Below are positions 1-37,224 of a stretch of 64,000 nt of DNA, in pieces. Location: assembly GCF_000826655.1 (NCBI RefSeq), contig NZ_JXJO01000024.1:62001-126000 (forward strand). Reading direction: 5' to 3'. The translations under genes were made by a program, and so were the position numbers. The stretch is from Psychroserpens damuponensis (GTDB lineage Bacteria > Bacteroidota > Bacteroidia > Flavobacteriales > Flavobacteriaceae). How positions within the stretch are numbered: position 1 is the first letter of the stretch; every line of letters begins with the position of its first letter. The notes beneath the pieces were generated by a model that was given only the letters and a program-made list of their open reading frames with translations, searched no databases and was not told the origin of the DNA.

Positions 1-723
1 TCCAGGAAACATAAGATCTTTTTCTGCTGCAAAAATTGTAATTGGTGTATTTATATTTTGAGCATTCTTCTTTGATATTATTGGTAAAGGCGAAAAATCC
101 ATGTTGCAATGCTGAAAAGTAGTTGACATAAATGTTAATGCAAAATCATCATATTCGGTAAAAAGCACATTCATTACTTTTTTAATGTATTGCTGATTAT
201 TTGTTTTTATGAACTTTTTTAAAGGCAAAAACAATTTAAAAAAGCCTAAAAGAGGATTTCCGTTTACTATATAAACAGGCGCTATTAGAAAGACTTCTTT
301 TATTTGTATTTGACTAAATTCTAGAGCTTTTAAGCTGATGAGTCCACCAAAAGAAAATCCGACTAAAGTCACGTTGGTAAGACCTAATTTAATAATAACC
401 TCTAATAACCATTGTCCGTAGTCTAGGGTTTTCATTTGTAACCTCTTTTCATCGCTTTTATTTGGCTGTGCCAATACGTCTACTGCATAAACACAATAAT
501 TCTTTGTTAAGCCTGAAAATGATTCTAACATTAAAGGTGCACAACCTCCAGTGCCATGAATGAGGACTAAAGGTGGTAGTTCTGTATCTCCTGTTACTAT
601 AACATTGGTATTTCCAAATTGGGTTTCAGCTATTTCTTCAGTATAAGTAATATTAAGATTTTGAAGCTTTTGACTATAAAGTTTTAGAATTATTTCTTTC
701 CCTTCTTTTGATTTAAAAAACAT
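1..723 (-). CDS. alpha/beta hydrolase, 3' end cut by window edge
   Basis: This is a partial gene: the start is at 723 and the reading frame stays open for 241 codons to base 1. The protein has the alpha/beta-hydrolase signature HGTGG (residues 56-60, oxyanion loop) and the nucleophile elbow GFSFGG (122-127, Ser124). The acid residue is seen in EKD near residue 236, and the catalytic His lies outside the window. It has no signal peptide, so it is probably cytoplasmic. It is a close paralogue of the gene at 32126-32989, with nearly identical blocks around the nucleophile. Its leader carries a GATTGATGATTGATT repeat (740-754) that overlaps the stop of the upstream oxidoreductase gene, so the two are probably co-transcribed. 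The substrate is unknown. Confidence 0.85.
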   Translation of the reverse strand, partial: MFFKSKEGKEIILKLYSQKLQNLNITYTEEIAETQFGNTNVIVTGDTELPPLVLIHGTGGCAPLMLESFSGLTKNYCVYAVDVLAQPNKSDEKRLQMKTLDYGQWLLEVIIKLGLTNVTLVGFSFGGLISLKALEFSQIQIKEVFLIAPVYIVNGNPLLGFFKLFLPLKKFIKTNNQQYIKKVMNVLFTEYDDFALTFMSTTFQHCNMDFSPLPIISKKNAQNINTPITIFAAEKDLMFPG

Positions 724-739
724 GAAAATATTCGTTTTT

Positions 740-754
740 GATTGATGATTGATT
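740..754 (-). repeat. short ATCATCA-type leader repeat before hydrolase gene
   Basis: On the minus strand this reads as two overlapping ATCAATCATCAATC-type units followed by CAAAAACGAATA and the hydrolase ATG at 723. The same leader occurs before the ABC ATPase gene (23389-23403) and, expanded to seven units, before the hydrolase paralogue (33006-33060). Confidence 0.7.
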
Positions 755-1478
755 AATGTGATACACTATAAATTACAGGCATTTGCCCTTTCCATTTATT
801 CCATAATTTGCTATCAGTGATTAAGCTAGTCATAAAGTGACCTACATTAATACGGCTTACCTTACCAGCATTAAAAATAGCACTCCTTGTTGGAGAAGGA
901 TGTATCTCATAATCGGTGACTTCCTCTTCGTTAATTAAGCCATCTGGTCGCACTGCAATCCATTCAATAGCATTATTGTTTTGACCAATTTGTGTTCGTA
1001 AATAATCAGCAGCTTTTTCATTATCTACATGAGGTGGCAATAACAAACGAAGAAGACCAATGACGCATTTTTGAGCAAAAGAAATGGGTTCATTTAAATC
1101 GCGATTACGATTTCCTGTGGTATTCATTAAAACAAACTTTGTTGGACTTTGTAGGTTATTTGATGTTATGGCATTGCATAAACGTCTTGTGGCATCTGTG
1201 ACTAGTTTTCTAGGTTGTCCGTAGATGCCTTTCCAAGTTAAATTATGCCCAAGGCAAGACGCAACTGCATTACAATCGCTTACAATTTCGCGCATTTCTG
1301 TATCACTTAAGTCTAATACACTTGCAGTGATAATTTGTAAGTTCTTATTGGTTTTCCAGGATTCTGGTAATTTATCTGGTGATCTAACAATGACTTTTAC
1401 TTTATGTTTCCCTATTAGAAGTTGCTCTACTAATTTGCTTCCTGTGGCACCACTTGCACCTACTACTATAACTGTCAT
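753..1478 (-). CDS. NmrA-like NAD(P)H-binding oxidoreductase
   Basis: The 241-residue protein begins directly with a Rossmann fold carrying the dinucleotide-binding motif GASGATG (residues 7-13). It has the RPDGL segment near residue 177 that is typical of the NAD(P)H-binding (PF13460, NmrA-like atypical SDR) family. The classical Tyr-xxx-Lys pair is not evident, so it may be a redox sensor or an atypical reductase rather than a standard dehydrogenase. The start at 1478 is supported by the paralogue at 36462-37190, which begins identically and agrees at roughly four of five residues by eye. The leader contains four GATT/ATCA tandem units (1489-1504). It lies 29 bp upstream of the hydrolase gene at 1-723. 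Confidence 0.88.
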   Translation of the reverse strand: MTVIVVGASGATGSKLVEQLLIGKHKVKVIVRSPDKLPESWKTNKNLQIITASVLDLSDTEMREIVSDCNAVASCLGHNLTWKGIYGQPRKLVTDATRRLCNAITSNNLQSPTKFVLMNTTGNRNRDLNEPISFAQKCVIGLLRLLLPPHVDNEKAADYLRTQIGQNNNAIEWIAVRPDGLINEEEVTDYEIHPSPTRSAIFNAGKVSRINVGHFMTSLITDSKLWNKWKGQMPVIYSVSH

Positions 1479-1488
1479 ACTATTTTTT

Positions 1489-1504
1489 GATTGATTGATT
1501 GATT
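1489..1504 (-). repeat. (GATT)4 tetranucleotide repeat in leader of oxidoreductase gene
   Basis: Four perfect GATT units, reading AATC on the coding strand, lie 10 bp upstream of the ATG at 1478. The paralogous gene at 36462-37190 has seven units in the same place. Confidence 0.85.
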
Positions 1505-1565
1505 GATGTATCTTAAAGACGATGAGCCACTATAATTGTTTCACTTACTAATGCTTTTATTTATT

Positions 1566-2357
1566 CTATGTGAATGGCGTACCTATAACATGGAAAACCA
1601 AATCGAATACTATGTGAGCTATAATAGCTACCAAAAGACCTCTTTTCCAAAATATCCATCCAAAAGTTGAACCAGTTATTAAGTTTCCAACCATAGTGAC
1701 ACCAATTGAAAAAGGGCTTAACTCCACAAAATTCTTTGACAATGGAAGATGTATTAATCCAAAAAATAATGCAGAAATGATAATACCTGACCAAACTATT
1801 TTATTGGAAGGACTTTCTACTTTTCTTATAAATTGAATAATCGCAATTATTAATGACATTAAGCCTAACCTAAACATGATCTCCTCACTAATACCTGCAG
1901 AAAAGGCAACAAGCGCGTAAAAAGGTTTTTCTGGCCTAGACATTTTACCAACAACAGGATACAATTCTTTCTGTAATTCAAATAATCCTAATAGAATTAA
2001 CGCTACAATTATAGACAAAACTATACTAGATAAAATCGTTTTCCAATCTATTAATTTTGCAACAGATTGTTTTGAAAAAAACCTAGCAATAACAGGTACT
2101 CCTAAATTTGTTTTAGATGCAACCCATAATCCAATAAACACCAAAATAGCACCTAGGATTAAACTACTAATTCCAATAGTTATAACGTCGTCGAAAATAG
2201 AATTACTTAATCGAACGTTGGGTATTCCAGCTTCTATATTTAATCTTTTTACCTCTCTGCTAAATGGGATATTTATTAATGATCCTATTACAAAAAGTAT
2301 TAACACACTAAAGGCAGTTTGCCAACGATAATTTTTCTTTTCTTCTTTATTTTTCAT
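1566..2357 (-). CDS. CPBP family intramembrane protease (first of pair)
   Basis: This multi-pass membrane protein of 263 residues belongs to the CPBP (CAAX protease and bacteriocin-processing) family. Motif 1 is EEIMFR at residues 158-163, motif 2 is the FGLIH segment near 195-199, and a later HIVFD supplies the third conserved His. These are the proposed glutamic/metal-type active-site positions of the family. A longer frame reaches back to 2402, but the ATG at 2357 is preferred: it gives a charged MKNKEEKK start and avoids overlap with the upstream gene, which stops at 2377. It is probably co-transcribed with that gene under the LytTR-type promoter at 3144-3215. The substrate is unknown. 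Confidence 0.85.
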   Translation of the reverse strand: MKNKEEKKNYRWQTAFSVLILFVIGSLINIPFSREVKRLNIEAGIPNVRLSNSIFDDVITIGISSLILGAILVFIGLWVASKTNLGVPVIARFFSKQSVAKLIDWKTILSSIVLSIIVALILLGLFELQKELYPVVGKMSRPEKPFYALVAFSAGISEEIMFRLGLMSLIIAIIQFIRKVESPSNKIVWSGIIISALFFGLIHLPLSKNFVELSPFSIGVTMVGNLITGSTFGWIFWKRGLLVAIIAHIVFDLVFHVIGTPFT

Positions 2358-2376
2358 GATTGATAAAGTAAATAAA

Positions 2377-3111
2377 CTATTTAATTGCTTGTAGAATTCC
2401 AACCATTGCAGATAATATCACTAGCCAGTGGATTATTATGTTAATGTATAATTTTTTAGAAAAAAGAAAAATAACTCCGAATACTATACCCCAAACAAAA
2501 TACCATCCAACCCAAATTCCATTTCCAGTAATTGAGTCTATTGCTCTCATTCCATGTTGAAAAATAAAAGGTATAGATGCTATTAGAACTGCTAGCCATT
2601 TGTTTACTTTATGACTCATTAAAGATTTTATTGCAAAACCTCGGTATACAATTTCTTCTACGATACCAGCAACCAATGCTAAAAAAACAAAAATCACTCT
2701 AGCTGTTGTTGTTTTGGGGCTAAATGAAGGGATTGAGTTTAATTTTTCAATGTTTATAGTTGATTTAGCTAGTGCCATTTCTATAAAAATGAGTAATCCA
2801 AATGCAATAATTAAATATCCCATAATAGAATAAATCATTTTCTTTTTAGATAACGCAATTCCAATATCACTCCATGACCAATTAGAATCTTTTAAAATTT
2901 TAGATATGATATATAATTGAAGTAAATACCAAGAAATGATAAGTACATAATTTAAATAATACGCATCTAAAAATGAGTTTAACGATTTAAGGTCAATACC
3001 TGATATAACAGGTTGACTTGAAAGTAATATTGAAATAAGTGTTGCAATAATTGGAAACCCAATTAATACTCCAAGTATTTTTGATAGTTGTATGGACGTT
3101 TTAGTTTTCAT
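2377..3111 (-). CDS. CPBP family intramembrane protease (second of pair)
   Basis: The 244-residue polytopic protein carries EEIVYRGF at about residues 150-157 (CPBP motif 1), FQHGM near 190 (motif 2) and an NIIIHW segment near the C-terminus. It is the promoter-proximal gene of a two-gene CPBP operon. Its start at 3111 lies about 35 bp below the conserved -7 element TTACTTTG (3146-3153, minus strand) and its LytTR-type operator. CPBP proteins often serve in peptide maturation or self-protection against peptide bacteriocins in Gram-positive bacteria. That role here is inference only. Confidence 0.87.
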   Translation of the reverse strand: MKTKTSIQLSKILGVLIGFPIIATLISILLSSQPVISGIDLKSLNSFLDAYYLNYVLIISWYLLQLYIISKILKDSNWSWSDIGIALSKKKMIYSIMGYLIIAFGLLIFIEMALAKSTINIEKLNSIPSFSPKTTTARVIFVFLALVAGIVEEIVYRGFAIKSLMSHKVNKWLAVLIASIPFIFQHGMRAIDSITGNGIWVGWYFVWGIVFGVIFLFSKKLYINIIIHWLVILSAMVGILQAIK

Positions 3112-3143
3112 CTTTTTTGTATTTATACTATTATCGATTTTTA

Positions 3144-3215
3144 GTCAAAGTAATGGAATACATATATAAAGGGAAAGGAAAAGTACAGGGACGTAAGATT
3201 CGAGGTTTAAGCGTT
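3144..3215 (-). promoter_or_regulatory. LytTR-type operator-promoter, copy A
   Basis: Read on the minus strand, this has box 1 AACGCTTAA, box 2 TACGTCCCT starting 20 bp later, the invariant TGTACTTTTCCTTT, then exactly 20 bp to a -7-like TTACTTTG. The identical layout occurs at 6710-6781 and 8611-8682. It drives the CPBP pair. The boxes resemble the LytTR direct-repeat consensus. Confidence 0.75.
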
Positions 3216-3228
3216 TTATAATTAGATT

Positions 3229-3786
3229 CTATATCTTTTTCGTATTGCTTTTTCGTTGAAGGTTAGTTTTTTCCTTTTCTATAATTTCGTCAATAAATTC
3301 ATTGACATTCAATTCTTTCAATTCAGCGTACAGCTTTTTATCTTGATTTGCTTTTTCTGCCAACTCGTATTTCATTTCCTGATATTTTAATCTAGCCCAA
3401 TCATTTTTTCGTAAAAAATTCCGCATCAAAATGTGTCTTTTAAGAGGTTCACTGTTTTTAATGCAAACATACAGGTGATGCGTAATTGTGTCTAAAACCC
3501 AATGCGATGATTCTCTGTTTCTTTTAAAAACCTCTCGTTTTTCAATTCCTTGATTTCCGTTATGATAGTACCCGATATTAATTAGTCCAGATTTTATTTT
3601 TTCAAATTCAGATTCGTTTTTATAAATAATATCAATGTCAATTATTGGTTTTGAATCCAAATTTGGGACAGAAGTACTGCCAACATGCTCAATGTGATAT
3701 TCAATTCCATTTAAACCCTTTTCAATTTCATGTTTTAGTTCTGTAAAATTTGTAATCCAATCGGTTGTATATTTTTTTATTAACAT
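3229..3786 (-). CDS. GrpB family (UPF0157) nucleotidyltransferase-fold protein
   Basis: The 185-residue soluble protein matches the GrpB/UPF0157 family. It has the typical HVGSTSVPNLDSKPIIDIDI segment (about residues 35-55), in which the GS and the D-x-D pair correspond to a nucleotidyltransferase-like core. The biochemical role of the family is poorly defined. The gene is on the same strand as its neighbours, but the LytTR-type promoter at 3144-3215 lies downstream of its stop and serves the CPBP genes, so it looks like an independent unit. The start at 3786 is the only upstream ATG in frame. Confidence 0.85.
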   Translation of the reverse strand: MLIKKYTTDWITNFTELKHEIEKGLNGIEYHIEHVGSTSVPNLDSKPIIDIDIIYKNESEFEKIKSGLINIGYYHNGNQGIEKREVFKRNRESSHWVLDTITHHLYVCIKNSEPLKRHILMRNFLRKNDWARLKYQEMKYELAEKANQDKKLYAELKELNVNEFIDEIIEKEKTNLQRKSNTKKI

Positions 3787-3838
3787 AAATTTTTGGTATA
3801 TGACGCAAAATTGTTTGTCAAAGTTTTAAAATAGAAGT

Positions 3839-6061
3839 TTATTTTCTAGAATTCCAAATAGGCAATGAAATACTACTGTTACCAGTGAAATTTATTTGTA
3901 AAGGAATTACAGCATCTTTAATATTTTCTTCATTGACATCTTTTCCAGAACCATAATTTATTTGTGCGTTGTTGTTTTTATTTACATTTACAACAATTAC
4001 AATATGACTTCCTTTTTCTATTTTTTTACTGATTAATTTAGAATTATTAAAAGAGATTTCTGTGAATTCATTTGGTGTTAATAAAACACGTTTTTCTCTA
4101 TCTTTTGCAAAACTTGCTCTACCAATATAATAGCTTAAATGAAAATATTTGTTTTCTGGTGTTAGCTGGTATACAATTACAGAATAATCAACGTCTTTTT
4201 TATTAATTGAAAATTCAAGATTACCAAAAAATGATCCGTTAATAATAACATCGTCTTTTAATTCTTCAGATTTAAAAACCAATCCATCTTTTAAATTGAT
4301 TTGTTCACGTTCTAGAGGCCAAGGATAATGTTCGGTATTATTCATGCTTTCTCTATCCTTAAAATCAACTTTCATTTCGATTTTAAAGTTATTTTTTTTC
4401 GATTTTAAAGTATAAACATCCTTTATTTTTTCAGCACTTAAATGAAAAGTCAAGGTGTCATTTGTCATGGCACTTAAACTCGATTTATGCATCCAAGTAT
4501 CTGTATCCATTACTTGAAAGTTTACTTTATCTTTTAAAATACTTGGCTTTTCTTTTCCATTTAAAATGTAATCAAACCATTGATAAATAATGTCTTCTTC
4601 AATATTTATTAAAGCAGTTTTGTCTAATTTATAATTTCTTAAACTTTCCTCTGGTTTCGTTTGTGCAGTCCAATGATCATAAGGGCCAACTAATAAATAA
4701 TGGTTTGAATTTTTCGCATATTTATGATGCTCATTAAAATAATGCATTGCTCCTCTTTGTGAGTCATCATAATAACCAGTAATTGTTAAAATTGGAATGT
4801 CAATTTTTGCAAATTCTTGTTTATATGGAATCATTTTTTTCCAAAAATCATCATAACTAGGATGTTGCATATATGTATTCCACAGTTTATTGACTTGACC
4901 ATCTAAACTATCTAACTTATTAAACGCAATTCCAGTTTTGTACCACGTATTTTTTAAGGTATTCCAACGATTAAAATCATTTGAAGCTTTAAAGTCTAAA
5001 AACTTGTTGTTGGTTACATAAAAATTCCAAGAATATGAATAATTATGTAGCACATTATTTTCCATTGGATAATCAATTCCAGGTGCAATTGCTACCATTG
5101 GAACTATTGTTTTTAACGACGGATGCACTTTGTGTTTCATTGAAGCCCATTGTGTAAAGCCATTGTAACTACCTCCAATCATGGCTACTTTTTGATTTGA
5201 CCAAGATTGCTTGCTAATCCAATCAATGACTTCATAGACATCTGTGTTTTCATATTCAAGAGGTTTTATGTCGCTTTTACTCCATCTTTTTCCTCTTGTA
5301 TTGGCAATAACTCCAACATATCCTTTGGATGCAGCTAACATTGTTGAAGCCACATTTGTTCCTGTATAAATTGAAGAAACTAATATTGCAGATTTTTTAG
5401 TAGTTGAATTTCCTTTTCGTTTTACGACTACAACTGAAACTTCTGCACCATCTTTCATCGGAATTACGACACTATCATTTACAACATATCTACGTTTATG
5501 ATCTTGCTTTATTTCTTCAAAATAAATAGCTCTAGTTGATGAAAATACAGTGCTTAAAAAATATTTTTTTACTAAATCCTTAGCTTTAGCTTGTGCTATT
5601 TTTTCTGATTTAATAGCATTATATGCGCTATTAAAATTACTCACATAATAATCTGTAGGATCTCTAATTATTAATGCTTTATCTAAATTAATAACTTGTA
5701 TATCATCAGAATTCTTTACGTATTTTCTGTAAGATTTTTTAAAGGCACCTTTAAAGTTCTTAGAAAGTTTAGCTTCTACATAATGCATGTATATATCTAA
5801 ATACTGTCTTTGATCTATTGGTGTTTCTTTAATTCTTTTTTTGAAAGTAACTAAAGCCTCTTTATAATTACCTCTAATTAACTGGAACTTAAATACATCT
5901 AATTCTGATAAATTTTGAGTATCACATAATACTGCTAATTGCTGCATTTGATTTGCAAGCGCTATTGAATCTGATAGTACCACCTTCTTAAATGCCACTT
6001 CTTGCGCAAAAGAAGTCATACTAATTGTGATTAAAAATAATATCAGGACTGATTTTTTCAT
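3839..6061 (-). CDS. secreted CocE/NonD (S15-type) hydrolase
   Basis: The 740-residue protein starts with a signal peptide (1-20, ending SFAQ). A helical N-terminal part of about 170 residues is followed by the CocE/X-Pro dipeptidyl-peptidase catalytic domain, with GGSYNG at 296-301 (Ser298 nucleophile) and later TGYYDD and GPYDHW segments that should carry the Asp and His. The last 200 residues fit the family's beta jelly-roll domain. Family members are serine acylases, esterases or X-Pro aminopeptidases, and the specificity here cannot be read from sequence. It starts 2 bp after the stop of the lipoprotein gene 6064-6684 and shares its LytTR-type promoter, so it is predicted to be a periplasmic or surface output of that system. 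Confidence 0.88.
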   Translation of the reverse strand: MKKSVLILFLITISMTSFAQEVAFKKVVLSDSIALANQMQQLAVLCDTQNLSELDVFKFQLIRGNYKEALVTFKKRIKETPIDQRQYLDIYMHYVEAKLSKNFKGAFKKSYRKYVKNSDDIQVINLDKALIIRDPTDYYVSNFNSAYNAIKSEKIAQAKAKDLVKKYFLSTVFSSTRAIYFEEIKQDHKRRYVVNDSVVIPMKDGAEVSVVVVKRKGNSTTKKSAILVSSIYTGTNVASTMLAASKGYVGVIANTRGKRWSKSDIKPLEYENTDVYEVIDWISKQSWSNQKVAMIGGSYNGFTQWASMKHKVHPSLKTIVPMVAIAPGIDYPMENNVLHNYSYSWNFYVTNNKFLDFKASNDFNRWNTLKNTWYKTGIAFNKLDSLDGQVNKLWNTYMQHPSYDDFWKKMIPYKQEFAKIDIPILTITGYYDDSQRGAMHYFNEHHKYAKNSNHYLLVGPYDHWTAQTKPEESLRNYKLDKTALINIEEDIIYQWFDYILNGKEKPSILKDKVNFQVMDTDTWMHKSSLSAMTNDTLTFHLSAEKIKDVYTLKSKKNNFKIEMKVDFKDRESMNNTEHYPWPLEREQINLKDGLVFKSEELKDDVIINGSFFGNLEFSINKKDVDYSVIVYQLTPENKYFHLSYYIGRASFAKDREKRVLLTPNEFTEISFNNSKLISKKIEKGSHIVIVVNVNKNNNAQINYGSGKDVNEENIKDAVIPLQINFTGNSSISLPIWNSRK

Positions 6062-6063
6062 TG

Positions 6064-6684
6064 TTACTTTTTATTTGGGTTAGCGTAACGTATTAACTCT
6101 TCATTATACAAAAAGCCGTCTTGTGTTTGCGTCATTTTAATAAAGTTTTTTATTTCTGGTGCGTATAACCAAACTTCATCTGTTTGTGCGTTGTATCCTC
6201 TTGAATTTGAAACGGTTCCTTTGTATTCAATGGTATAAGCCATAAATGTTCCTGCTCCTACTCTTTCTTCTTTAAAAGACAAAACTTCTGCATCTTGACT
6301 TTGTTTTCCTGTGGTACCATCTTGACTTGTCCAGTTTTTTTCATATTTCCATTTTTTCCCTACTTCTAATGGCCACTTATATTTTGGTGTTTTACTTGTT
6401 TCTGGTTTTACTATATCTGATACTGGAATAGTGTCTTTTCCAATGATCATACCTAAAGCACCATCTATATTAATTATTTTTCTTGTGTCTTTTCCATCTG
6501 AACGTACTTCTCCTTCAGTTGTTACACCTTTATATTTCCAAGTCCATTTTTCACCAACCGCATAATCGGTTAATGTTGGCTGTTTTGCTACTAAAGTGTT
6601 GTCTTCACAGCAATAAAATAACAGAGAAATGATAACTAGAAAAATGATTTTTACTATTTGAAATACTTCTTTTAAATAACTCAT
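6064..6684 (-). CDS. predicted lipoprotein, unknown function
   Basis: The 206-residue protein has an N-terminal hydrophobic segment ending LLFYCC (Cys25/26), consistent with a lipoprotein signal. It is followed by a Trp/Lys-rich domain with repeated GEKWTWKY-like and GKKWKYE-like strands, suggesting an all-beta fold. I do not recognise the family. It is the first gene of a two-gene operon with the CocE-type hydrolase (2-bp spacing). Its start lies below the copy C LytTR-type promoter at 6710-6781. A partner, chaperone or inhibitor role for the hydrolase is possible but is only inferred from position. Confidence 0.75.
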   Translation of the reverse strand: MSYLKEVFQIVKIIFLVIISLLFYCCEDNTLVAKQPTLTDYAVGEKWTWKYKGVTTEGEVRSDGKDTRKIINIDGALGMIIGKDTIPVSDIVKPETSKTPKYKWPLEVGKKWKYEKNWTSQDGTTGKQSQDAEVLSFKEERVGAGTFMAYTIEYKGTVSNSRGYNAQTDEVWLYAPEIKNFIKMTQTQDGFLYNEELIRYANPNKK

Positions 6685-6709
6685 AATATGGCTTTTAAAT
6701 TAATTATAA

Positions 6710-6781
6710 CACAAAGTAAAGGTGTATTTTTCTATCAAAAAAGGAAAAGTACATGAGCGCAAATAAATGCAAATGAACGTT
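6710..6781 (-). promoter_or_regulatory. LytTR-type operator-promoter, copy C
   Basis: Minus strand: box 1 AACGTTCAT fits the LytTR consensus completely. Box 2 TGCGCTCAT starts 20 bp later, followed by TGTACTTTTCCTTT, 20 bp, and the -7-like TTACTTTG (6712-6719). The layout matches copies A and B base for base in spacing. It drives the lipoprotein/CocE hydrolase operon. Confidence 0.75.
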
Positions 6782-6803
6782 AGATAACGGAACGATTACT
6801 TCT

Positions 6804-7526
6804 TTATAAACTATTCCAGTTTTTAAACTTGACGGATTGCCTACTAGATACTTCTACTTTTTCTCCAGTAGTTAATATAATTTGCAATTTATTATTGAAG
6901 TATGGATGAATCTCTTTGATGTAGTTTATGTTAATCATTTGACTTCGATTAACCCGGAAAAAGACTTTAGGATCTAATTTTTCTGCTAATAAATTTAAAG
7001 AACGTTTAATCATCGCTTTATCAGAACCAAAATAAAGACGTGCATAGTTTTCTAAAGATTCAATAAAGTGAATATCTGTTAGCGGAATAAAATGACATTT
7101 TTCACCATCTTTAATGAAAATCTTTTGATGCATTTGTAAAGTAGTAGGCTCTAATTTTACTCTTTTAGATAATTCCAACTTTACCTTTTCTATAGTTTTA
7201 GAAAAACGTTCATCTCTCAATGGCTTAACTAAATAATCTAACGCATTCATCTCAAAAGCTTTTACAGCGTATTGATCATAAGCAGTAGTAAAAACAACAT
7301 CTGGTACATTTGTTAATTCTTCCAATAAATCAAATCCAGATTTACCAGGCATGTGAATATCTAAGAACAAAATATCTGGTTTTAATTCTTCAATTAAAGA
7401 TATAGCCTCATCTACATGACTTGCCTCGCCAATAATTTCAAACTCTTGATGTTTTTCTAATGCACGTTTTACTTCTTCTCTCGCTAAACGTTCATCATCA
7501 ATGATTATGGTTTTATATCTTTTCAT
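6804..7526 (-). CDS. LytTR-family response regulator (system 1)
   Basis: The 240-residue protein has a receiver domain (1-120) with the acidic pair near residues 10-11, phospho-acceptor Asp56 in FLDIHMPG, TTAY near 80 and LVKP near 100. The LytTR DNA-binding domain (about 135-240) contains HFIESLENYARLYF and FFRVNRSQMINI. It overlaps the kinase gene by 14 bp. LytTR domains bind direct repeats about two helical turns apart. Such repeats sit upstream of its own operon and of two neighbouring operons, so it is predicted to activate itself and them. Confidence 0.92.
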   Translation of the reverse strand: MKRYKTIIIDDERLAREEVKRALEKHQEFEIIGEASHVDEAISLIEELKPDILFLDIHMPGKSGFDLLEELTNVPDVVFTTAYDQYAVKAFEMNALDYLVKPLRDERFSKTIEKVKLELSKRVKLEPTTLQMHQKIFIKDGEKCHFIPLTDIHFIESLENYARLYFGSDKAMIKRSLNLLAEKLDPKVFFRVNRSQMININYIKEIHPYFNNKLQIILTTGEKVEVSSRQSVKFKNWNSL

Positions 7527-8604
7527 CTTCTATATGCATTGGAATTATTATTTCTGCAACTACACAGTCATTTTCTTTAGCTGTTAAACTAAAACTAGCG
7601 TTATTTTTATATTGAATTTCTAGACGCTTTTTTAAATTTTTTAAACCTAATCCACCATTTTTATGTTGATTAATTACTCCAGGATTCTCAACTGTAAGAT
7701 AAATATTGTTATCCTTCTTTTTAATTTTCAAGAAAATAATGCCACCACCAATTTTTAAGTCGATTCCATGTTTAATTGCATTTTCAATTAACAACTGTAT
7801 ACTTAGTGTAGGAATCTTATAATTAATGAGGTCGTTATCAATATTCGTTTTTAATTGAAGTCGTTCCTCAAAACGCATCTTTTCTAATTCGATATAATCT
7901 TTTACCAAAGACAATTCTTCCTTTATAGGTATTAAATCTTTGTCTTTTTCATATAATGAGGAACGCAATAAATCTGATAATAAATCAATAGCTCTTCTTG
8001 CAACGTTAGGGTTTTCAATTACTAATGACTTTATCGAATTTAGCGAGTTGAATAAGAAATGCGGATTCAATTGAGCCGATAAATTATCTAATTGTGCTTG
8101 TTTAGCTATGATAGATAATTGAGCATTTTCTTTTGCTGTAACAACTTCTTTCTGATAATAATGATACAAATGATACGCCAATAACCAAATGGACATTAAT
8201 CTTAGCCCAGTAAGTAATATAGGATCCCAATAAATAATTGATTCTAAAAAATCAACATTTTTAATTACAAAAAGTGTTCTAAAAATATACCACTTTAAGT
8301 TACTTATTAATACATATAAAACCGCTAATAAAAGTATAGTAGGCAGTAAACGGATTAGTAATTGCCTTATGGGCAAACTACTCCATTTAGCTTTTAAGGC
8401 AAATCGCCTGTACATATGTGTTAAAAATATTCCTATAGAAATATCTAATACATAATTTAACAACGTATAAAAAATGCCGTAATTATCTCTTGTATATACT
8501 GTATATGCCCAATAAATAGAAACAATGCTCCATCCTATTAACTGGCATTTCCAATAAAGAGAAATCGTAGTATTACTAGTATTTGTTTTTTTGTTGCTAT
8601 TCAT
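7513..8604 (-). CDS. LytS/YehU-type sensor histidine kinase (system 1)
   Basis: The 363-residue membrane kinase has several N-terminal transmembrane helices (about 20-150) and a short coiled linker. Its His_kinase domain has LNPHFLFNSLNSIKS, with His182 as phospho-acceptor. The ATP-binding part shows IENAIKHGI near 275 and GLGLKNLKKRL near 325. There is no obvious extracellular sensor domain, so the signal is probably sensed in or at the membrane. It is the first gene of the operon, directly below promoter copy B (8611-8682), which implies autoregulation. Confidence 0.92.
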   Translation of the reverse strand: MNSNKKTNTSNTTISLYWKCQLIGWSIVSIYWAYTVYTRDNYGIFYTLLNYVLDISIGIFLTHMYRRFALKAKWSSLPIRQLLIRLLPTILLLAVLYVLISNLKWYIFRTLFVIKNVDFLESIIYWDPILLTGLRLMSIWLLAYHLYHYYQKEVVTAKENAQLSIIAKQAQLDNLSAQLNPHFLFNSLNSIKSLVIENPNVARRAIDLLSDLLRSSLYEKDKDLIPIKEELSLVKDYIELEKMRFEERLQLKTNIDNDLINYKIPTLSIQLLIENAIKHGIDLKIGGGIIFLKIKKKDNNIYLTVENPGVINQHKNGGLGLKNLKKRLEIQYKNNASFSLTAKENDCVVAEIIIPMHIEDEKI

Positions 8605-8610
8605 GGTTTA

Positions 8611-8682
8611 GACAAAGCAACGAAATACTTTTAAATAGTGAAAGGAAAAGTACAGGAACGTGAAATAATAGGTTTAAGTGTT
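8611..8682 (-). promoter_or_regulatory. LytTR-type operator-promoter, copy B (autoregulatory)
   Basis: Minus strand: AACACTTAA, then CACGTTCCT 20 bp later, TGTACTTTTCCTTT, 20 bp, and TTGCTTTG (8613-8620). It lies 7 bp upstream of the kinase start codon, so the mRNA leader would be very short or absent. It has the same geometry as copies A and C. Confidence 0.72.
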
Positions 8683-9200
8683 ATATATAAAATCTATTCC
8701 ATTCCACAAACATTCCGCTTCTCTCCTACCGTCGCTACGCAAAAAGAGTGTTTACTCGCCCACTCTATTTTAATAAATAGGTGCACGTGAACCCTTCGGG
8801 TTCCATTAACATTGTAGAAGAAACTTTTAGAATAAATTTTTTAAATAAACTTTAGCAAGAACTTTCGCTTTTTACCAAATCGAGTTTACGAGATTCATGA
8901 ACTCTTTAATTTTAAATAAGAACCTCGTTAATAAAGCTCAAGTTACATAACGGAAGGACTTTATGATACAAATACTTATTATGTTGTTTAAGTCTTTATT
9001 TCCATTTTGATAGCTATAATGTAGTATTATGTAAAATATCCTAGAAGGATTTGTCTGTTTTCTATAAAACAAATATTCCTGAAACAGATAAACTTCATTT
9101 CATTACCATTTCCGAAGAAAAAAGGTTAAGAAAAATATATAGAAAAGACAATATTGAACTAGGACAGTTCAATTAGCAAAAAAGTATTTTAGGCCATAGT
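8683..9200. other. 518-bp gene-free region
   Basis: No convincing gene is present. The left part (8700-8805) is slightly less A/T-rich and holds a perfect small hairpin, GAACCC-TTC-GGGTTC at 8789-8803, without a T-tract. A 15-codon frame (8963-9010) encodes a hydrophobic peptide but has no supporting evidence. A copy of the 14-mer ATTTCCGAAGAAAA is at 9108-9121. The rest is A/T-rich and unassigned. Confidence 0.6.
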
Positions 9201-9806
9201 TTAATAATACAGTCTAAAATCTAGTAGTTGACACAGTTTGTAGTGTTTTTGGTGCAACTCTTCTACGACTTCTAGCATATTATCATCGTCTTTAAACAGA
9301 TTAAAAAATGCCATATCGAGATGAGCACTTGTTATCCCATTGTTGGCATAACCGTAGCCAGAAACGGCTCTTGCTCCAGTGATATCTAAAAAATATTGTG
9401 CCTCTTCGTCGTCTAAATCTAAGATTTTAATATTTGAAAAATGAAGAATTTTACCTGCTAAGCGTCCTTCAAACATTTCGGCAATTTCCTGTAGCGTGTA
9501 ATTATAATTATTTAAAGAAATGGTATTGGATTCACCTGAAATAACGAGGTAAATAATTTCATAATCTATAAAATTATGATCGTCTAATAAGAGCGTGTCA
9601 AATCTAGCTTCTAAACCTTCAATGGTATCGCAGGTATTATAAATACTGGTAATTCCTGATTGTAAGGTTAATTGCTCTAATTTAGTTTGCGTTTCGGTAA
9701 TGGTTTTGACGTCTTCATCTTCAACGGCTTCTAGACAGTAAATGAAATAATCGGTATCGATGTCTTCAACTTTGACAAGTTTGTGGTTTGCTTTCTGTAA
9801 ATCCAA
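9201..9806 (-). CDS. acidic protein of unknown function (DUF6642/CHAT-like?)
   Basis: The 201-residue soluble, strongly acidic protein has no signal peptide or membrane segment. The stretch FLDITGARAVSGYGYA near residue 140, followed by an S-A-H-L-D-M-A-F-F segment, recalls a flavobacterial family of caspase/CHAT-like proteins (DUF6642). No complete His/Cys dyad can be pointed out, so this is a weak resemblance. The gene is divergent from the Crp/Fnr regulator at 9956, separated by 149 bp. No operon partner is seen. Confidence 0.65.
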   Translation of the reverse strand: MDLQKANHKLVKVEDIDTDYFIYCLEAVEDEDVKTITETQTKLEQLTLQSGITSIYNTCDTIEGLEARFDTLLLDDHNFIDYEIIYLVISGESNTISLNNYNYTLQEIAEMFEGRLAGKILHFSNIKILDLDDEEAQYFLDITGARAVSGYGYANNGITSAHLDMAFFNLFKDDDNMLEVVEELHQKHYKLCQLLDFRLYY

Positions 9807-9943
9807 ATTTGATAAATGTATTTTTTAATAAAATTAATCCATTGTGTATGATTAAGCTGTTAATGTAATACTAAAATAGTGCTGTTGCTTCGCTCCTATG
9901 TATTTTACTTAAATTCTATACGTGAATTTTAAACGCTCTTTCC

Positions 9944-9951
9944 TATTTTTG
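9944..9951 (+). promoter_or_regulatory. -7 element TATTTTTG of the Crp/Fnr gene
   Basis: This is a perfect match to the Bacteroidota -7 consensus TAnnTTTG, ending only 4 bp before the ATG at 9956. Transcription would then start at or next to the start codon, giving a leaderless mRNA. No TTGA-type box is visible upstream, so autoregulation is not supported. Confidence 0.5.
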
Positions 9952-9955
9952 AACG

Positions 9956-10516
9956 ATGGAACAATTTATAAACTATATAAAGCAATTTATTAACCTTTCT
10001 ATTGAAGCAGAGCAAGATATTCTTGACATGGTTTTATTAGAAAACGTCCCTAAAGGACACCTTTTACTAAAAGAGGGTCAAACTTGTGATCGATTGTATT
10101 TTATTGCTGAAGGAACCGTTAGAACGTATCATTACCAAAAAGGAAAAGATATTACGTATTGGATTTATCCTGAAAATATGATAACGACGTCTTGGCATAG
10201 CTATATTTTAAGAAAACCATCATCAGAATATATTGAAACAACTGAGGATTCTGTATTGATGTCCTTATCCTATAACCAATGGCAAGAATTATACTTAAAA
10301 CATGCCAAATTAGAACGTTTTGGTAGATTGGTTATAGAAGAGCAAATGGCTTTGCTTGATGATTTCTTTAAAGGGTATTACTTTTTATCGGCTAAAGAAA
10401 AATATGCGTTGTTAACGTCTGCTTTTCCAACCATTACACAGCGTGCAAATCTTGGACACATTGCTTCTATGCTTGGAATATCTCAAGAAACTTTGAGTAG
10501 AATAAGAGGAAAATAA
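9956..10516 (+). CDS. Crp/Fnr-family transcriptional regulator
   Basis: The 186-residue protein has a cyclic-nucleotide-binding-type beta-roll (about 20-115) and a short C-terminal winged helix. The recognition helix reads SQETLSRIRGK at the very end. Its E-x-x-S-R pattern is the one that FNR uses to read TTGAT half-sites. Only one Cys is present, so it is not an Fe-S oxygen sensor, and its effector is unknown. Three TTGAyNTArGTCAA boxes lie in the promoters of operons starting at 14290 (minus), 14451 and 15327, making it the obvious candidate regulator. It is followed by a hairpin terminator. Confidence 0.9.
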   Translation: MEQFINYIKQFINLSIEAEQDILDMVLLENVPKGHLLLKEGQTCDRLYFIAEGTVRTYHYQKGKDITYWIYPENMITTSWHSYILRKPSSEYIETTEDSVLMSLSYNQWQELYLKHAKLERFGRLVIEEQMALLDDFFKGYYFLSAKEKYALLTSAFPTITQRANLGHIASMLGISQETLSRIRGK

Positions 10517-10550
10517 ATAAGGCTCACATCATAAATGTAAGCCTTATTTT
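10516..10550 (+). terminator. intrinsic terminator after Crp/Fnr gene
   Basis: Stem AATAAGGCT / AGCCTTATT with an inner ACA/TGT extension is followed by T-rich sequence. It begins at the stop codon of the regulator gene and may also serve the convergent operon ending at 10574. Confidence 0.75.
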
Positions 10551-10573
10551 AGTTGAATAATTAGGTTTTTCTT

Positions 10574-11425
10574 TTAGAATACTCTGACAATATTAAACCC
10601 AAAAAATACATCTTCAAACCACTTCCCTTCTGCATTACTAATAAAACCTGGTTCGTTAGTAGATTGTGCATTAGAGAATAATAACTGAAATACGTGACCT
10701 CCAGTTTCAATATCTAAACCAAAGGTTAATGGATTGTTGTAAATAGAATTTTCGTTTCTGCTGAAATTATAAACATAATCCACATTTACAGACATACGTT
10801 TACTCACTTTCATGCGTCCACCAGCACCTAAAGCTATTTGATTGTGTTTTTGAAATGGTTCTAACACTAAATTTTGTCTTACAAAGGTTGGTGCAATTTC
10901 AAATGAAAAAGTATTACTAAATCGTCTCGAAATTAAGAGTTGTGTGGCATAACTCATACGATCACCAAATTCTAATAATGGGTATTGTTCTTGTCGTAAA
11001 TCTGTTCTAATATTTGCTGTAGCGTAAGCCACAACATGCACAGGAAATTCTTTAGACTGACCAATGAGTTTCGCTTTTATGTGCGATGAATACGTTTTTC
11101 TTATCGATTCTCTTGCTAATCCTAACTGAATACCATCATGCACACCATATACTAATTGTATTTTAGTATTGGCATTATCAAATCCAAAAAAAGTAGTTAA
11201 ACCATCTTTTAACGTTCCAAATCTATGAGATACATACATATACAAATCACCTTTTGAAGCGACTTTAGTCGATTGTAAATTTCCTATTTTCATGGCTTTA
11301 AAAGCAGGTTGTTCATAAGGTTCTTCCTGTGTTTCTGCTTCTAACTCAAGTAATAAATCGTCTTGTGCAAAAAGGGTATTTAAACCACAACACATCACTG
11401 TAATTGCTAATAAATAATTTTTCAT
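10574..11425 (-). CDS. outer-membrane beta-barrel protein, DUF5777-like
   Basis: The 283-residue protein has a signal peptide (1-20, ending LFAQ) followed by alternating aromatic/hydrophobic strands and a C-terminal aromatic strand ending in VRVF, as expected of an outer-membrane barrel. The overall pattern fits the DUF5777-type barrels found with YceI and cytochrome c genes in Bacteroidota. It is the last gene of a six-gene minus operon (14290 to 10574), 4 bp after the OB-fold gene. The substrate or ligand is unknown. Confidence 0.78.
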   Translation of the reverse strand: MKNYLLAITVMCCGLNTLFAQDDLLLELEAETQEEPYEQPAFKAMKIGNLQSTKVASKGDLYMYVSHRFGTLKDGLTTFFGFDNANTKIQLVYGVHDGIQLGLARESIRKTYSSHIKAKLIGQSKEFPVHVVAYATANIRTDLRQEQYPLLEFGDRMSYATQLLISRRFSNTFSFEIAPTFVRQNLVLEPFQKHNQIALGAGGRMKVSKRMSVNVDYVYNFSRNENSIYNNPLTFGLDIETGGHVFQLLFSNAQSTNEPGFISNAEGKWFEDVFFGFNIVRVF

Positions 11426-11429
11426 TAAT

Positions 11430-11819
11430 TTAATTTTTAATAATGGTTTGGTCTATTTTAACTTCTTCTAATAAATCATCATAGCCAATCATTCGACCTT
11501 TAATGGTTACTTTCTGCGCTATCTCTAATGAAGGCAATAAGGCTACATCATCTAATTGGCAATACGTACTATGATTTAAGGTGATGCCTTTGTTATCTTT
11601 TGCGGTTATAGTTCCGTTTAGTTGCACTACCACATTTTGCCAGTGCTTAGCATTCGTTTTTATTTTTTTTAAAAACACCTCAGAAGTTCCCGAATATTTA
11701 AGCTCTAATTCGTCTATGGTTTTATGCGCTTTATAAGTATAGTTATACACACCATAACCAGCAAAAGCAAGGCTTATCAAGATTATTGTTATAATTTTAG
11801 TTTTTTTGGACAAGCTCAT
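11430..11819 (-). CDS. membrane-anchored OB-fold (tRNA_anti-like) protein
   Basis: The 129-residue protein has one N-terminal membrane anchor (about residues 8-27), then a small beta-rich domain with strands such as VVVQLNGTITAKDNKGITL and VTIKGRMIGYDD. This resembles the OB-fold tRNA_anti-like domains of periplasmic proteins. Its ATG lies inside the end of the YceI gene (23-bp overlap), which indicates translational coupling. The function is unknown; a periplasmic partner of the YceI and cytochrome proteins is inferred from the operon. Confidence 0.75.
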   Translation of the reverse strand: MSLSKKTKIITIILISLAFAGYGVYNYTYKAHKTIDELELKYSGTSEVFLKKIKTNAKHWQNVVVQLNGTITAKDNKGITLNHSTYCQLDDVALLPSLEIAQKVTIKGRMIGYDDLLEEVKIDQTIIKN

Positions 11820-12342
11820 AGCATAATTTTATGGTTATATCTTTTGCAATTTTAGTTCTTACAATATTTGGAATAGCTATATCAAAATCATGTGGTGACA
11901 CGCTAAATGAGGACACTAAAGTGATGTTGCCATCTCCATTTTTAATTTTAGCAACGGTTTCAATAGCCTTTGTTTTTCCTCTTATCGTTAAGATGCCTTT
12001 TAAGGTGAATTCTTTATCAGCATTAGACAGTAAATCCATTGAAAAGCCGTCTAACTGACCTTTAAAAGTAGCCTTTGGAAATTTATCGGAATCCATATAG
12101 TTTTCGTTAAAATGCTCTTCCATTAAAGCAATTTCAAAGTGAAATGCTTTGACAAAAAGTAATGTCGCTATAGCTCCAGTTTGTGTATTTAAAATAGCTG
12201 TAGTACTTTCATTAACAGCTTCTATAGGTTCAAAAGCTTCAACCGAAGCTTTAAATGCTGTTGTTCCTGTTTTGGTAAAATATTTTTGGGCAGAAGCAAA
12301 ACTTGTAATAAGCAATGCGAGTAATAATATTAATGTCTTCAT
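11797..12342 (-). CDS. YceI-family periplasmic protein
   Basis: The protein is 181 residues from the ATG at 12342, which starts a clear signal peptide (MKTLILLLALLITSFASA). The frame extends further upstream but would bury the signal peptide and overlap the cytochrome gene. The mature part has the YceI lipocalin-like pattern, including FHFEIALMEEHFNENYM near residue 75 and LTIRGKTKAIETVA near 135. YceI proteins bind isoprenoid or other lipid-like molecules in the periplasm. It lies between the cytochrome c and OB-fold genes of the operon. Confidence 0.88.
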   Translation of the reverse strand: MKTLILLLALLITSFASAQKYFTKTGTTAFKASVEAFEPIEAVNESTTAILNTQTGAIATLLFVKAFHFEIALMEEHFNENYMDSDKFPKATFKGQLDGFSMDLLSNADKEFTLKGILTIRGKTKAIETVAKIKNGDGNITLVSSFSVSPHDFDIAIPNIVRTKIAKDITIKLCYELVQKN

Positions 12343-12355
12343 TTGTGTTATATTT

Positions 12356-12715
12356 TTAATTTTCAAGGAAACCATCGGTTACCCATTTGTCCATAATTTG
12401 TCTTAGTTCTGGTGACACTAATCCGTTGGGTGGCATTGGATTTGTGGTGTTATTCATACGTTGAATTAAGCTTCCCATTTCCGCAGAAAAACGTGTATTT
12501 TGATAATTAGTTAAGTCTAATCCGCTTTGTGGTGCCGATCCTCCATGGCAAGTCACACATCGATTAAACATAATTGTTTCGACGTCTGAACTGTATGTAA
12601 CCATTCTCGTTATTGGTGGTAGTGTATCTACTGTGCCTTCATCTAGAATTGCAGTGGTGCAACTTTCTAATAAGCCAATAGCAAAAATGGTAATGACTAA
12701 TATGTTCTTGTTCAT
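12356..12715 (-). CDS. c-type cytochrome lipoprotein
   Basis: The protein is 119 residues from the ATG at 12715. An N-terminal lipoprotein signal ends at Cys19 (LLESC). A single haem-c motif CVTCH is at residues 53-57, and a downstream NPMPPNG provides a likely Met ligand. A longer frame to 12745 would overlap the upstream gene and is not preferred. It would be an outward-facing monohaem electron carrier or sensor, of the type annotated as a cytochrome c domain in Bacteroidota. It starts 4 bp after the lipoprotein gene 12720-13886. Confidence 0.87.
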   Translation of the reverse strand: MNKNILVITIFAIGLLESCTTAILDEGTVDTLPPITRMVTYSSDVETIMFNRCVTCHGGSAPQSGLDLTNYQNTRFSAEMGSLIQRMNNTTNPMPPNGLVSPELRQIMDKWVTDGFLEN

Positions 12716-12719
12716 GCTC

Positions 12720-13886
12720 TTAATTTTGTACATTAATGTTATCAATTGTTATTTCTGGTTCGCTTTCTGGTGCTATGGTGATTGTTCGTTGAATATGCGT
12801 CATATCGCCTTCGGAAATAATACCATCTTCATTAAGGTCGGCTGTTACATTTATATAATAGGTTCCTGGATGTAAATAGGTAAGGAACAAGCTGTCTTCA
12901 TTTTGTGATAATTCGGAAAACAATAGACTTGAATTATAGGCTTCAAAATCTGCAACGAAATAACCATACTCATCTGTAAAAGCGTTTTTAGTTAGATTTA
13001 CAAACAGTGTTTTATTTTCAATAGCAGTGTGTCTGGTAATATTAACTTGTAAGATTGATAGATATGGATGATCTGTTATAATAAAGGGATCTCCAGACTC
13101 TTGAGCTAAGCCTAAGAGATTAGTATTATCTGGTCCTTGCGCTAAAAAAGTAGCAGAAACTGGTTCATTATCACCTGGATTTACATAAAGATACTCTTCC
13201 ATAAATCCTTCTGAAAAATCCCAAGCTGGTGTGTTTTGAGGGAAACCTACAGTTTCGGCAGCTGTTTGCGCTAATTCAAAATCATTTAATTTCCCTTTAA
13301 AGGTCATGTGTCTTGCTGGTGGCACCACAGTACCAAGTCGGCTTGTGTAGGCGTTCCAATACAAACTATCTTGTTTAAAACGCAGTTCCATATACATGGT
13401 TCCTGTGCCTCCAATAGCATCTACAAGTCTATAGTAATCTCCATTAACATCTGTACGCACACTATCTAACACAAAATAGCTAGAGCGATAAATACCGTTT
13501 AACAAACCACCATTACGTGCCATAATAGTGCGTTTATCTTTAAAATTGGTTACAAAAAAAGAGGTTAATAAATTACCTAATGTACCTCCTTCAAAAATAC
13601 CATGAATTTGAGATGGTGAATTGGCTCTATAATCCCAAGCAAACCAATCAAAATCATCTGCAATAACACGGTTAGTTCCAACCCATTGACCTTGCATTCT
13701 TTCAAGTAAATAAAACCCATTAGTATTTTCATTTATGTCTACCGGATTTACTTCTGTTGGGCCAATTGGTAATGGAACTATCGCTCCATTTTCGCCTGCA
13801 ATATTTCTAATACTATCGGTAGAACACCCAATGATAAGTAGTGATAGAATAACGCTAAAGCTTAAAAATTTAATTGTTTTTTTCAT
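12720..13886 (-). CDS. large lipoprotein with Ca-binding-like loop, unknown
   Basis: The 388-residue protein has a lipoprotein signal with Cys21 (LLIIGC). The mature part is rich in beta strands and has no family I recognise. Near the C-terminus, ADLNEDGIISEGDM resembles a dockerin/EF-hand calcium loop (D-x-N-x-D-G). It is the second gene of the Crp/Fnr-box operon, 17 bp after the DUF2147-like gene and 4 bp before the cytochrome gene. A surface or periplasmic location is likely. Confidence 0.7.
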   Translation of the reverse strand: MKKTIKFLSFSVILSLLIIGCSTDSIRNIAGENGAIVPLPIGPTEVNPVDINENTNGFYLLERMQGQWVGTNRVIADDFDWFAWDYRANSPSQIHGIFEGGTLGNLLTSFFVTNFKDKRTIMARNGGLLNGIYRSSYFVLDSVRTDVNGDYYRLVDAIGGTGTMYMELRFKQDSLYWNAYTSRLGTVVPPARHMTFKGKLNDFELAQTAAETVGFPQNTPAWDFSEGFMEEYLYVNPGDNEPVSATFLAQGPDNTNLLGLAQESGDPFIITDHPYLSILQVNITRHTAIENKTLFVNLTKNAFTDEYGYFVADFEAYNSSLLFSELSQNEDSLFLTYLHPGTYYINVTADLNEDGIISEGDMTHIQRTITIAPESEPEITIDNINVQN

Positions 13887-13903
13887 AGTTTATAATTCTG
13901 TTT

Positions 13904-14290
13904 TTATTGTTTAATCCAGATTTCTTTTATTGGTTTTTTCATGAGATAAGTCTTGACTTCTAAGGTGTCTTTACTAATCAAATCAAGGGTGACTAAATCA
14001 CTTGATTTTTCTGTGTTTGTAGCGCCTGAAACGGCATCTATGTACACATCATCATGCTTTTTTATATTATTAAAAAAATAATGTTTAGCTTGACCATCTT
14101 TGTATGAATACACAGTGGTATCATCATTGTAATAAAGCACTAAACCTTTAACTTCATTATTATCTTCAAGAATTTGGCAAGTCCCTTTATAAAATTTGCT
14201 ATCTACTTTCCATAAACCAAGTAGTGGATTGTCCTTTTCACCACAAGAAAAAACAGAAACAAATAGGGTTAACAGTATGGTTTTCTTCAT
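13904..14290 (-). CDS. DUF2147-like lipoprotein (copy 1)
   Basis: The 128-residue protein has an N-terminal signal ending VFSCGEKD (lipoprotein Cys16). The mature domain starts with LLGLWKVDS and ends with KPIKEIWIKQ, a layout shared with the 133-residue product of 15327-15728 (IIGIWDVET ... QPYKEIWKR). Both fit the DUF2147/lipocalin-like family. It is the promoter-proximal gene of the six-gene minus operon, and its promoter holds a Crp/Fnr-type box at 14339-14352 and a perfect TACATTTG -7 element. Confidence 0.75.
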   Translation of the reverse strand: MKKTILLTLFVSVFSCGEKDNPLLGLWKVDSKFYKGTCQILEDNNEVKGLVLYYNDDTTVYSYKDGQAKHYFFNNIKKHDDVYIDAVSGATNTEKSSDLVTLDLISKDTLEVKTYLMKKPIKEIWIKQ

Positions 14291-32989: not shown

Positions 32990-33005
32990 AAAATGATCGT
33001 TTTTT

Positions 33006-33060
33006 GATTGATGATTGATGATTGATGATTGATGATTGATGATTGATGATTGATGATTGA
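33006..33060 (-). repeat. heptanucleotide tandem repeat (ATGATTG)7 in hydrolase leader
   Basis: Seven perfect, uninterrupted ATGATTG units (33011-33059) follow a partial unit GATTG and precede the start codon at 32989 by about 20 bp. The sequence is in the expected untranslated leader. There are no spacers, so this is not a CRISPR array. Confidence 0.95.

Positions 33061-36461: not shown

Positions 36462-37224
<763 letters not shown>

Follow-up and report, generated by a model that had tools for sequence, protein, structure and literature searches.

A LytS/LytTR gene cluster with three 72-bp elements

The window, by which we mean the whole 64,000-nt stretch of Psychroserpens damuponensis DNA under analysis, carries a minus-strand gene for a 363-aa sensor histidine kinase of the LytS type (7513–8604). 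Its product scored 95 bits against PF06580 (cut-off 25.2), as expected of a LytS-type His_kinase protein, and its phospho-acceptor His182 was invariant in 41/41 sequences. A search for an ATP-binding catalytic domain gave no HATPase_c match at E 0.001; the predicted model (pTM 0.48), which has four long N-terminal helices, does match kinase catalytic domains. A fold search with the kinase listed general kinase domains, and a pyruvate sensor part was not found among its matches. The response regulator (6804–7526, minus strand; 240 aa) combines a receiver (PF00072) with a LytTR DNA-binding domain (PF04397), and its Asp56 was invariant in 37/37 sequences. Its nearest curated model was BtsR, against which it reached 174 bits, below the cut-off of 246.

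The remaining genes lie on the same strand. A lipoprotein-like protein (6064–6684; 206 aa) belongs to no Pfam or NCBIfam family, and its model, a fold rich in beta strands, only weakly matches YmcC/LolA-like structures (TM 0.36–0.49 for the best five). It is followed by a CocE/NonD hydrolase (3839–6061; 740 aa) with Peptidase_S15 and PepX_C domains (TIGR00976, 148 bits; cut-off 66.3) and by a GrpB-family gene (3229–3786), which probably belongs to the CocE operon and has the same position in loci L034 and L061. Two CPBP intramembrane proteases come last, an Rce1-like protein of 244 aa (2377–3111) and a second of 278 aa (1566–2402). No RNA family or tRNA was found in window positions 1–14000.

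The initial annotation had described three minus-strand 72-bp sites that align without a gap, and we verified these at 3144–3215 (site 1), 6710–6781 (site 2) and 8611–8682 (site 3), with 36/72 columns invariant and pairwise identities of 41, 45 and 56 of 72. They have a 14-base word in common; random triples of 250-nt stretches from the window reached at most 11 bases (n = 1,956, from 2,000 triples drawn, those with overlapping picks being discarded). The pattern TGTACTTTTCCTTT occurred three times in the 3.95-Mb genome (3,945,764 bases), every copy in the window, and the reversed pattern not at all. A chance match was ruled out by this genome-wide count, the random-triple control and the family genome test below.

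Counting from the first base of box1 as column 1, the element consists of box1 (columns 1–9), box2 (21–29), GTACTTTTCC (30–39), TTTY (40–43), 19 bp, and TTnCTTTG (63–70). It thus contains two 9-bp direct boxes with a period of 20 bp, box2 ending 10 bp above TTTY. In promoter numbering that sets the G of the -7 box as -5, a convention taken from PMC6847099, TTTY spans -35 to -32 (the -33 element), box2 is centred near -50 and box1 near -70. Site 3, the predicted operator-promoter of the kinase/regulator operon, comprises box1 at 8674–8682, box2 at 8654–8662, GTACTTTTCC at 8644–8653, TTTC at 8640–8643 and the -7 box TTGCTTTG at 8613–8620. The corresponding parts of site 2, the predicted operator-promoter of the lipoprotein/CocE operon, are 6773–6781, 6753–6761, 6743–6752, TTTT at 6739–6742 and TTACTTTG at 6712–6719. 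Site 1, the predicted operator-promoter ahead of the CPBP pair, both genes of which are its predicted targets, has them at 3207–3215, 3187–3195, 3177–3186, TTTC at 3173–3176 and TTACTTTG at 3146–3153; a site in this position was found elsewhere only in L034.

Across 38 nonredundant sites, the strongest self-similarity of the motif was the period-20 direct repeat, which exceeded every inverted alignment. Published LytTR operators have repeats of 9–11 bp with 11–13 bp between them (PMC4847170) and tend to lie 10 bp above -35 (PMC6193735); the window sites have a 9-11-9 bp arrangement, and 12 bp lie between the boxes in sites of the 21-bp type. The proposal that two direct boxes about two turns apart are of the LytTR type thus holds for the layout, which matches published operators (PMC6193735, PMC4847170), and the bases differ.

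The predicted operator is conserved upstream of orthologous kinases

A search with the kinase confirmed 119 loci, and we named the best 80 of these (46–94% identity; Flavobacteriaceae, Sphingobacteriales and Chitinophagales), of which 49 closer loci have at least 60% kinase identity and 31 distant loci 46–53%. In an anchored search upstream of the kinase, box2 plus GTAC was found at ≥9/12 letters in 80/80 of these best 80 of 119 loci (reversed, 12/80) and at ≥11/12 letters in 69/80 of the best 80 of 119 (reversed, 0/80). Adding box1 (≥6/8 letters) at 20 or 21 bp retained 79/80 (best 80 of 119; reversed sequence, 8/80). The conservation in related genomes on which the initial annotation had staked its reading was therefore present, and its first target, the LytTR system itself, has both boxes ahead of the kinase in those 79/80 loci. 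When box1 was searched freely 8–60 bp away, the best match lay at 20 bp in 21/40 nonredundant sites and at 21 bp in 11.5/40 (ties split), with better box1-like matches scattered elsewhere in the remaining 7.5/40.

Columns 1–42 alone recovered the kinase-upstream site in 74/80 (best 80 of 119), with the reversed control at ≤7.7 bits; the six missed loci belong to the Chitinophagaceae/Sphingobacteriales side and carry the same boxes with a 21-bp spacing. In 1.57 Mb, a matrix refined on the named loci matched no sites except those before the kinase, those before the gene that follows the regulator and a handful in other places, and it gave nothing above 8 bits on reversed sequence. Mean information per column was 0.89 bits for columns 1–42, compared with 0.09 for the 30 columns upstream and 0.24 for the 20 that follow the element. 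TTTG, which was excluded from scoring, followed column 42 by 23 or 24 nt in 48/49 nonredundant core matches, the exception being the L074 lipoprotein site with TTTC. An operator common to all LytS-type systems was not supported by other kinase loci: the refined matrix found nothing above 0 bits in 25 of them (≤40% identity, ~1.5-kb flanks), and inspection by eye found no operator ahead of the kinase paralog in the window's own genome (contig C41) or of three 35–37% relatives.

The motif and the kinase occur in the same genomes

Among 23 genomes of the genus, the kinase was present in five (E ≤1e-60), all of which carried 2–3 copies of the motif (5/5); one of the 18 genomes without the kinase had a single two-mismatch match, and 17/18 had none. 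Across 349 genomes of the family, the motif occurred in 24/25 with the kinase versus 8/324 without it (Fisher p 3e-29, p values being overstated because the genome set and the named loci overlap and are related). Seven of the eight kinase-less genomes had a single two-mismatch match, like the six genomes matched by a reversed control pattern. In the eighth (G126), which has no kinase, a perfect core lies close to a contig end and directly precedes a fragment similar to the end of CocE. Given this fragment, we rejected the idea that the contig end truncates a kinase gene there; a decayed module, a misjoined contig or a rearrangement could account for the site. The core and fragment (L158, 7371–7528) lie downstream of a reading frame that by eye looks like one for a ribosomal protein. 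The one genome with the kinase and no motif match (G146) keeps both boxes 20 bp apart and is missing GTACTTT.

In a sample of the phylum, 9/345 genomes had the kinase at E ≤1e-60, and the system is therefore patchy. Two of these nine genomes (G620, locus L173; G697, locus L175) contain 49–50% kinase homologues with in-frame stops, a degenerate box1 and a retained box2-GTACTTTTATTTG, possibly reflecting decay of the module.

A hydrolase operon is the recurrent predicted target

All distant loci had the order kinase-regulator-CocE with a single operator, ahead of the kinase (31/31 within the best 80 of 119). Within the same best 80 of 119, a lipoprotein gene followed the regulator in 46/49 closer loci and had its own operator in 46/46 (45 by script plus L034, where the script called the gene start too late and the site lies at +1811). 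The lipoprotein/CocE operon named as a target in the initial annotation thus recurs in 46/49 closer loci (best 80 of 119). CocE itself was found in 44/49 closer loci (best 80 of 119); of those without it, L052 and L058 end early, and L056, L057 and L081 do not have it in the fetched part. The invariable set is kinase, regulator and CocE hydrolase, to which closer relatives add the lipoprotein behind a second operator.

Other genes were associated with the operator less often. A PF00756 esterase followed the regulator in 5/49 closer loci (within the best 80 of 119) and in G002 (L160), and in L064 (26 bits), L075 (41 bits, 232 nt upstream) and G121 (40.7 bits) the esterase gene has an operator to itself; in G121 the module lies on one contig and the esterase with its operator on another. 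CPBP proteases lay inside or behind the lipoprotein/CocE operon in L061, L068, L069, L081, L160 and L164, and behind their own operator in the window and L034 only. The third proposed target, the CPBP pair, is a candidate whose one counterpart outside the window, the 92%-identical locus L034, offers no independent support. Further sites were a weaker one (31 bits) in L057, 300 nt upstream of a gene of the beta-lactamase family, one 5.9 kb upstream of the kinase in L041, and an extra copy (26.6 bits) in G217 before a lipoprotein gene that appears truncated by eye.

Both promoter boxes depart from consensus

According to PMC6847099, the standard -7 box of F. johnsoniae is TAHHTTTG, with a near-invariant A at -11 and virtually no G at -10. 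TTRCTTTG departs from this sigma-A box, with T in place of A at -11. This T was present in 98/101 matrix sites, which were picked with that column included. Among readable kinase sites, picked by columns 1–42 plus TTTG, TT at -12/-11 was found in 46/48 closer and 21/24 distant ones, and 35/48 closer kinase sites (within the best 80 of 119) had G at -10. TTnnTTTG was not enriched within 100 nt upstream of 1,063 other ORFs (98 sense versus 173 antisense), and TAnnTTTG occurred 125 times in sense and 98 times in antisense. The initial annotation had also noted the lack of a TTG element at -33; the G is indeed missing, but there is an invariant TTT with C or T after it, and the element would be a -33 box minus its G. 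Since TTTY stands for TTTG and T for A at -11, the element fits a promoter that needs help.

The kinase ATG lay ≤10 nt past the -7 box in 46/49 closer loci, mostly at 7 or 8 nt, and in 4/31 distant loci (best 80 of 119). In the window it lies 8 nt past the box (8604–8620), and the kinase message is therefore possibly near-leaderless: with transcription starting 4–5 nt past the -7 box, as PMC6847099 gives for F. johnsoniae, the leader would measure about 2–4 nt in closer loci and 3–4 nt in the window. Leaderless messages make up 5.5% in F. psychrophilum (PMC9723704).

Comparison with known LytTR systems

LytTR Regulatory Systems (LRS) consist of a receiver-less LytTR regulator and an inhibitory membrane protein in place of a kinase. 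The operators of LRS, represented by HdrR and BrsR of Streptococcus mutans and by predictions in Bacteroides, resemble the present element in having 9-bp direct repeats with 11–13 bp between them, about 10 bp above the -35/-33 element and ahead of the regulator's own operon (PMC6193735). The predicted Bacteroides LRS-like operator ends in TGTA-19 bp-TATCTTTG and thus shares the 19-bp distance from -33 to -7 (PMC6193735). The window module has a receiver and a kinase, a true kinase/response-regulator pair that falls outside LRS, and its operator differs in its bases, in the extra invariant GTACTTT and in a -7 box of TTnCTTTG, not TATCTTTG. It also resembles BtsS/BtsR and YpdA/YpdB of E. coli, which pair a PF06580 kinase with a receiver-LytTR regulator. 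YpdB binds a direct repeat (PMC4847170). The targets of these systems are transporters (PMC5552118), while the predicted ones here are hydrolases and a lipoprotein.

The bacteriocin regulons of streptococci and Lactobacillus are governed by LytTR activators that bind direct repeats, with CAAX/CPBP proteases among the neighbours. The CPBP link is minor in the present system. Mutations in a LytTR regulator and kinase arose in a coevolution experiment with F. johnsoniae, and the available text of PMC10197871 showed no tie to the present system.

A proposed model of an autoregulated module and its alternatives

The layout of the element, its conservation, its linkage to the kinase/regulator genes and the genes behind each copy were observed directly and confirm the observation of the initial annotation; its interpretation is supported. 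Judging from sequence, we consider it very probable that the 72-bp element serves an autoregulated two-component module of the LytS/LytTR type as its operator-promoter. We infer that the regulator binds and activates these promoters, although another co-inherited factor could in principle be the binding protein. A signal would lead the membrane kinase to phosphorylate the regulator, two LytTR domains of which would contact ACGYTYAT near -70 and ACGYTCCT near -50, at a distance of two helical turns. The bound regulator would bring in RNA polymerase at a promoter that is too weak by itself (TTTY at -33, T at -11), and the resulting rise in kinase and regulator would constitute positive feedback. 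Exported hydrolases would be raised as well, the CocE/S15 hydrolase as the invariable member; closer relatives may have inserted a lipoprotein gene ahead of CocE, behind an operator of its own, and some may have gained an esterase or CPBP proteases as targets. In the window, the kinase message would probably begin 3–4 nt before its AUG.

The departure of the -7 box from TAHHTTTG, with T at -11 in 98/101 sites and G at -10 in 35/48 closer kinase sites (best 80 of 119), could instead mean that the element is mainly an alternative-sigma promoter with the signature GTACTTT plus TTnCTTTG, in which the boxes are secondary. It bears a partial likeness to motif SM5 of F. psychrophilum, TAnnTTGY, which PMC9723704 ascribes to an alternative sigma. 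However, the boxes form the 20/21-bp direct repeat typical of LytTR sites, the motif tracks the kinase/regulator genes and is missing from 17/18 other genus genomes, no sigma factor gene was seen in the module, and G146 has the boxes without GTACTTT, so that we regard this reading as unlikely. The regulator might instead repress these promoters, autorepression being common, but the boxes lie upstream of -33 and leave -33/-7 uncovered, neither promoter box fits the consensus, and published LytTR sites with this layout act in positive feedback (PMC6193735); we give repression little credence.

The claim that the sites are not a recent duplication held in part. Site 2 is diverged, with just short stretches in common with either of the others, and keeps its spacing; sites 1 and 3 share 77% identity across 93 bp, so that site 1 could have arisen long ago by copying of the kinase promoter. 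That all three are copies of one duplicated promoter whose boxes have no regulatory role is, however, hardly credible given the spacing retained in site 2, the concentration of information in columns 1–42 and conservation down to 46% kinase identity, and it is contradicted by the family genome test, the columns 1–42 search and the 79/80 anchored search (best 80 of 119).

More tentatively, the module may have a promoter type of its own in Bacteroidota, a composite GTACTTT/TTnCTTTG promoter that sigma-A might read only when the LytTR regulator is present, or that might be read by a special sigma. This promoter type would be kept across Flavobacteriia, Sphingobacteriia and Chitinophagia, move between genera with its operators, gain hydrolase targets by operator copying and give a near-leaderless kinase message.

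Apparent transfer of the module and its significance

A block of ~9.7 kb that holds the module and all three operators shows 84–92% DNA identity to a record of Maribacter ulvicola (window 1–8879 versus L034 9770–18598, extending to about 61,170 of contig C24), the similarity stopping just past the kinase promoter. Six other Maribacter or Maribacter-like loci match the L034 block at 71–81%; the higher identity to the window than within Maribacter points to horizontal transfer, apparently of the module with its operators attached. A mislabelled L034 record could also account for this similarity.

The flanks showed several further features. The intergenic stretch at 8690–9190 resembles sequences that border the module, on one side or on both, in L034, L035, L042, L056, L162 and others; it may be a clue to a mobile element, but 8695–9060 is single-copy in its own genome and no inverted repeat was found. 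A second, divergent LytS/LytTR pair lies directly upstream of the module in L062, L066, L068, L070, L078 and L084, accompanied by genes of ~295–319 and 1,092–1,096 aa. The window also holds, at 32183–33019 and 36480–37216, relatives of the hydrolase (1–723) and NmrA-like (753–1478) genes next to the module, which match the L034 copies at 76% and 79% in DNA and have no operator.

Most of what is known of LytTR operators comes from Firmicutes and Proteobacteria. Among open-access articles listed in PMC, we found one prediction for Bacteroidota, in Bacteroides (PMC6193735). This kind of switch is thus already known, and the new parts are its conservation, its target set and its odd promoter, including a -7 box with T for the A of sigma-A, the possibly near-leaderless kinase message and the apparent transfer with operators. 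Because it is conserved in much of the phylum, the 72-bp matrix supplies a ready target list, and the conserved sites provide a natural comparison of 20- and 21-bp spacing. The element is also a test case for promoters in which both normal sigma-A boxes are missing, and it ties an unnamed lipoprotein family and a CocE hydrolase to one sensor.
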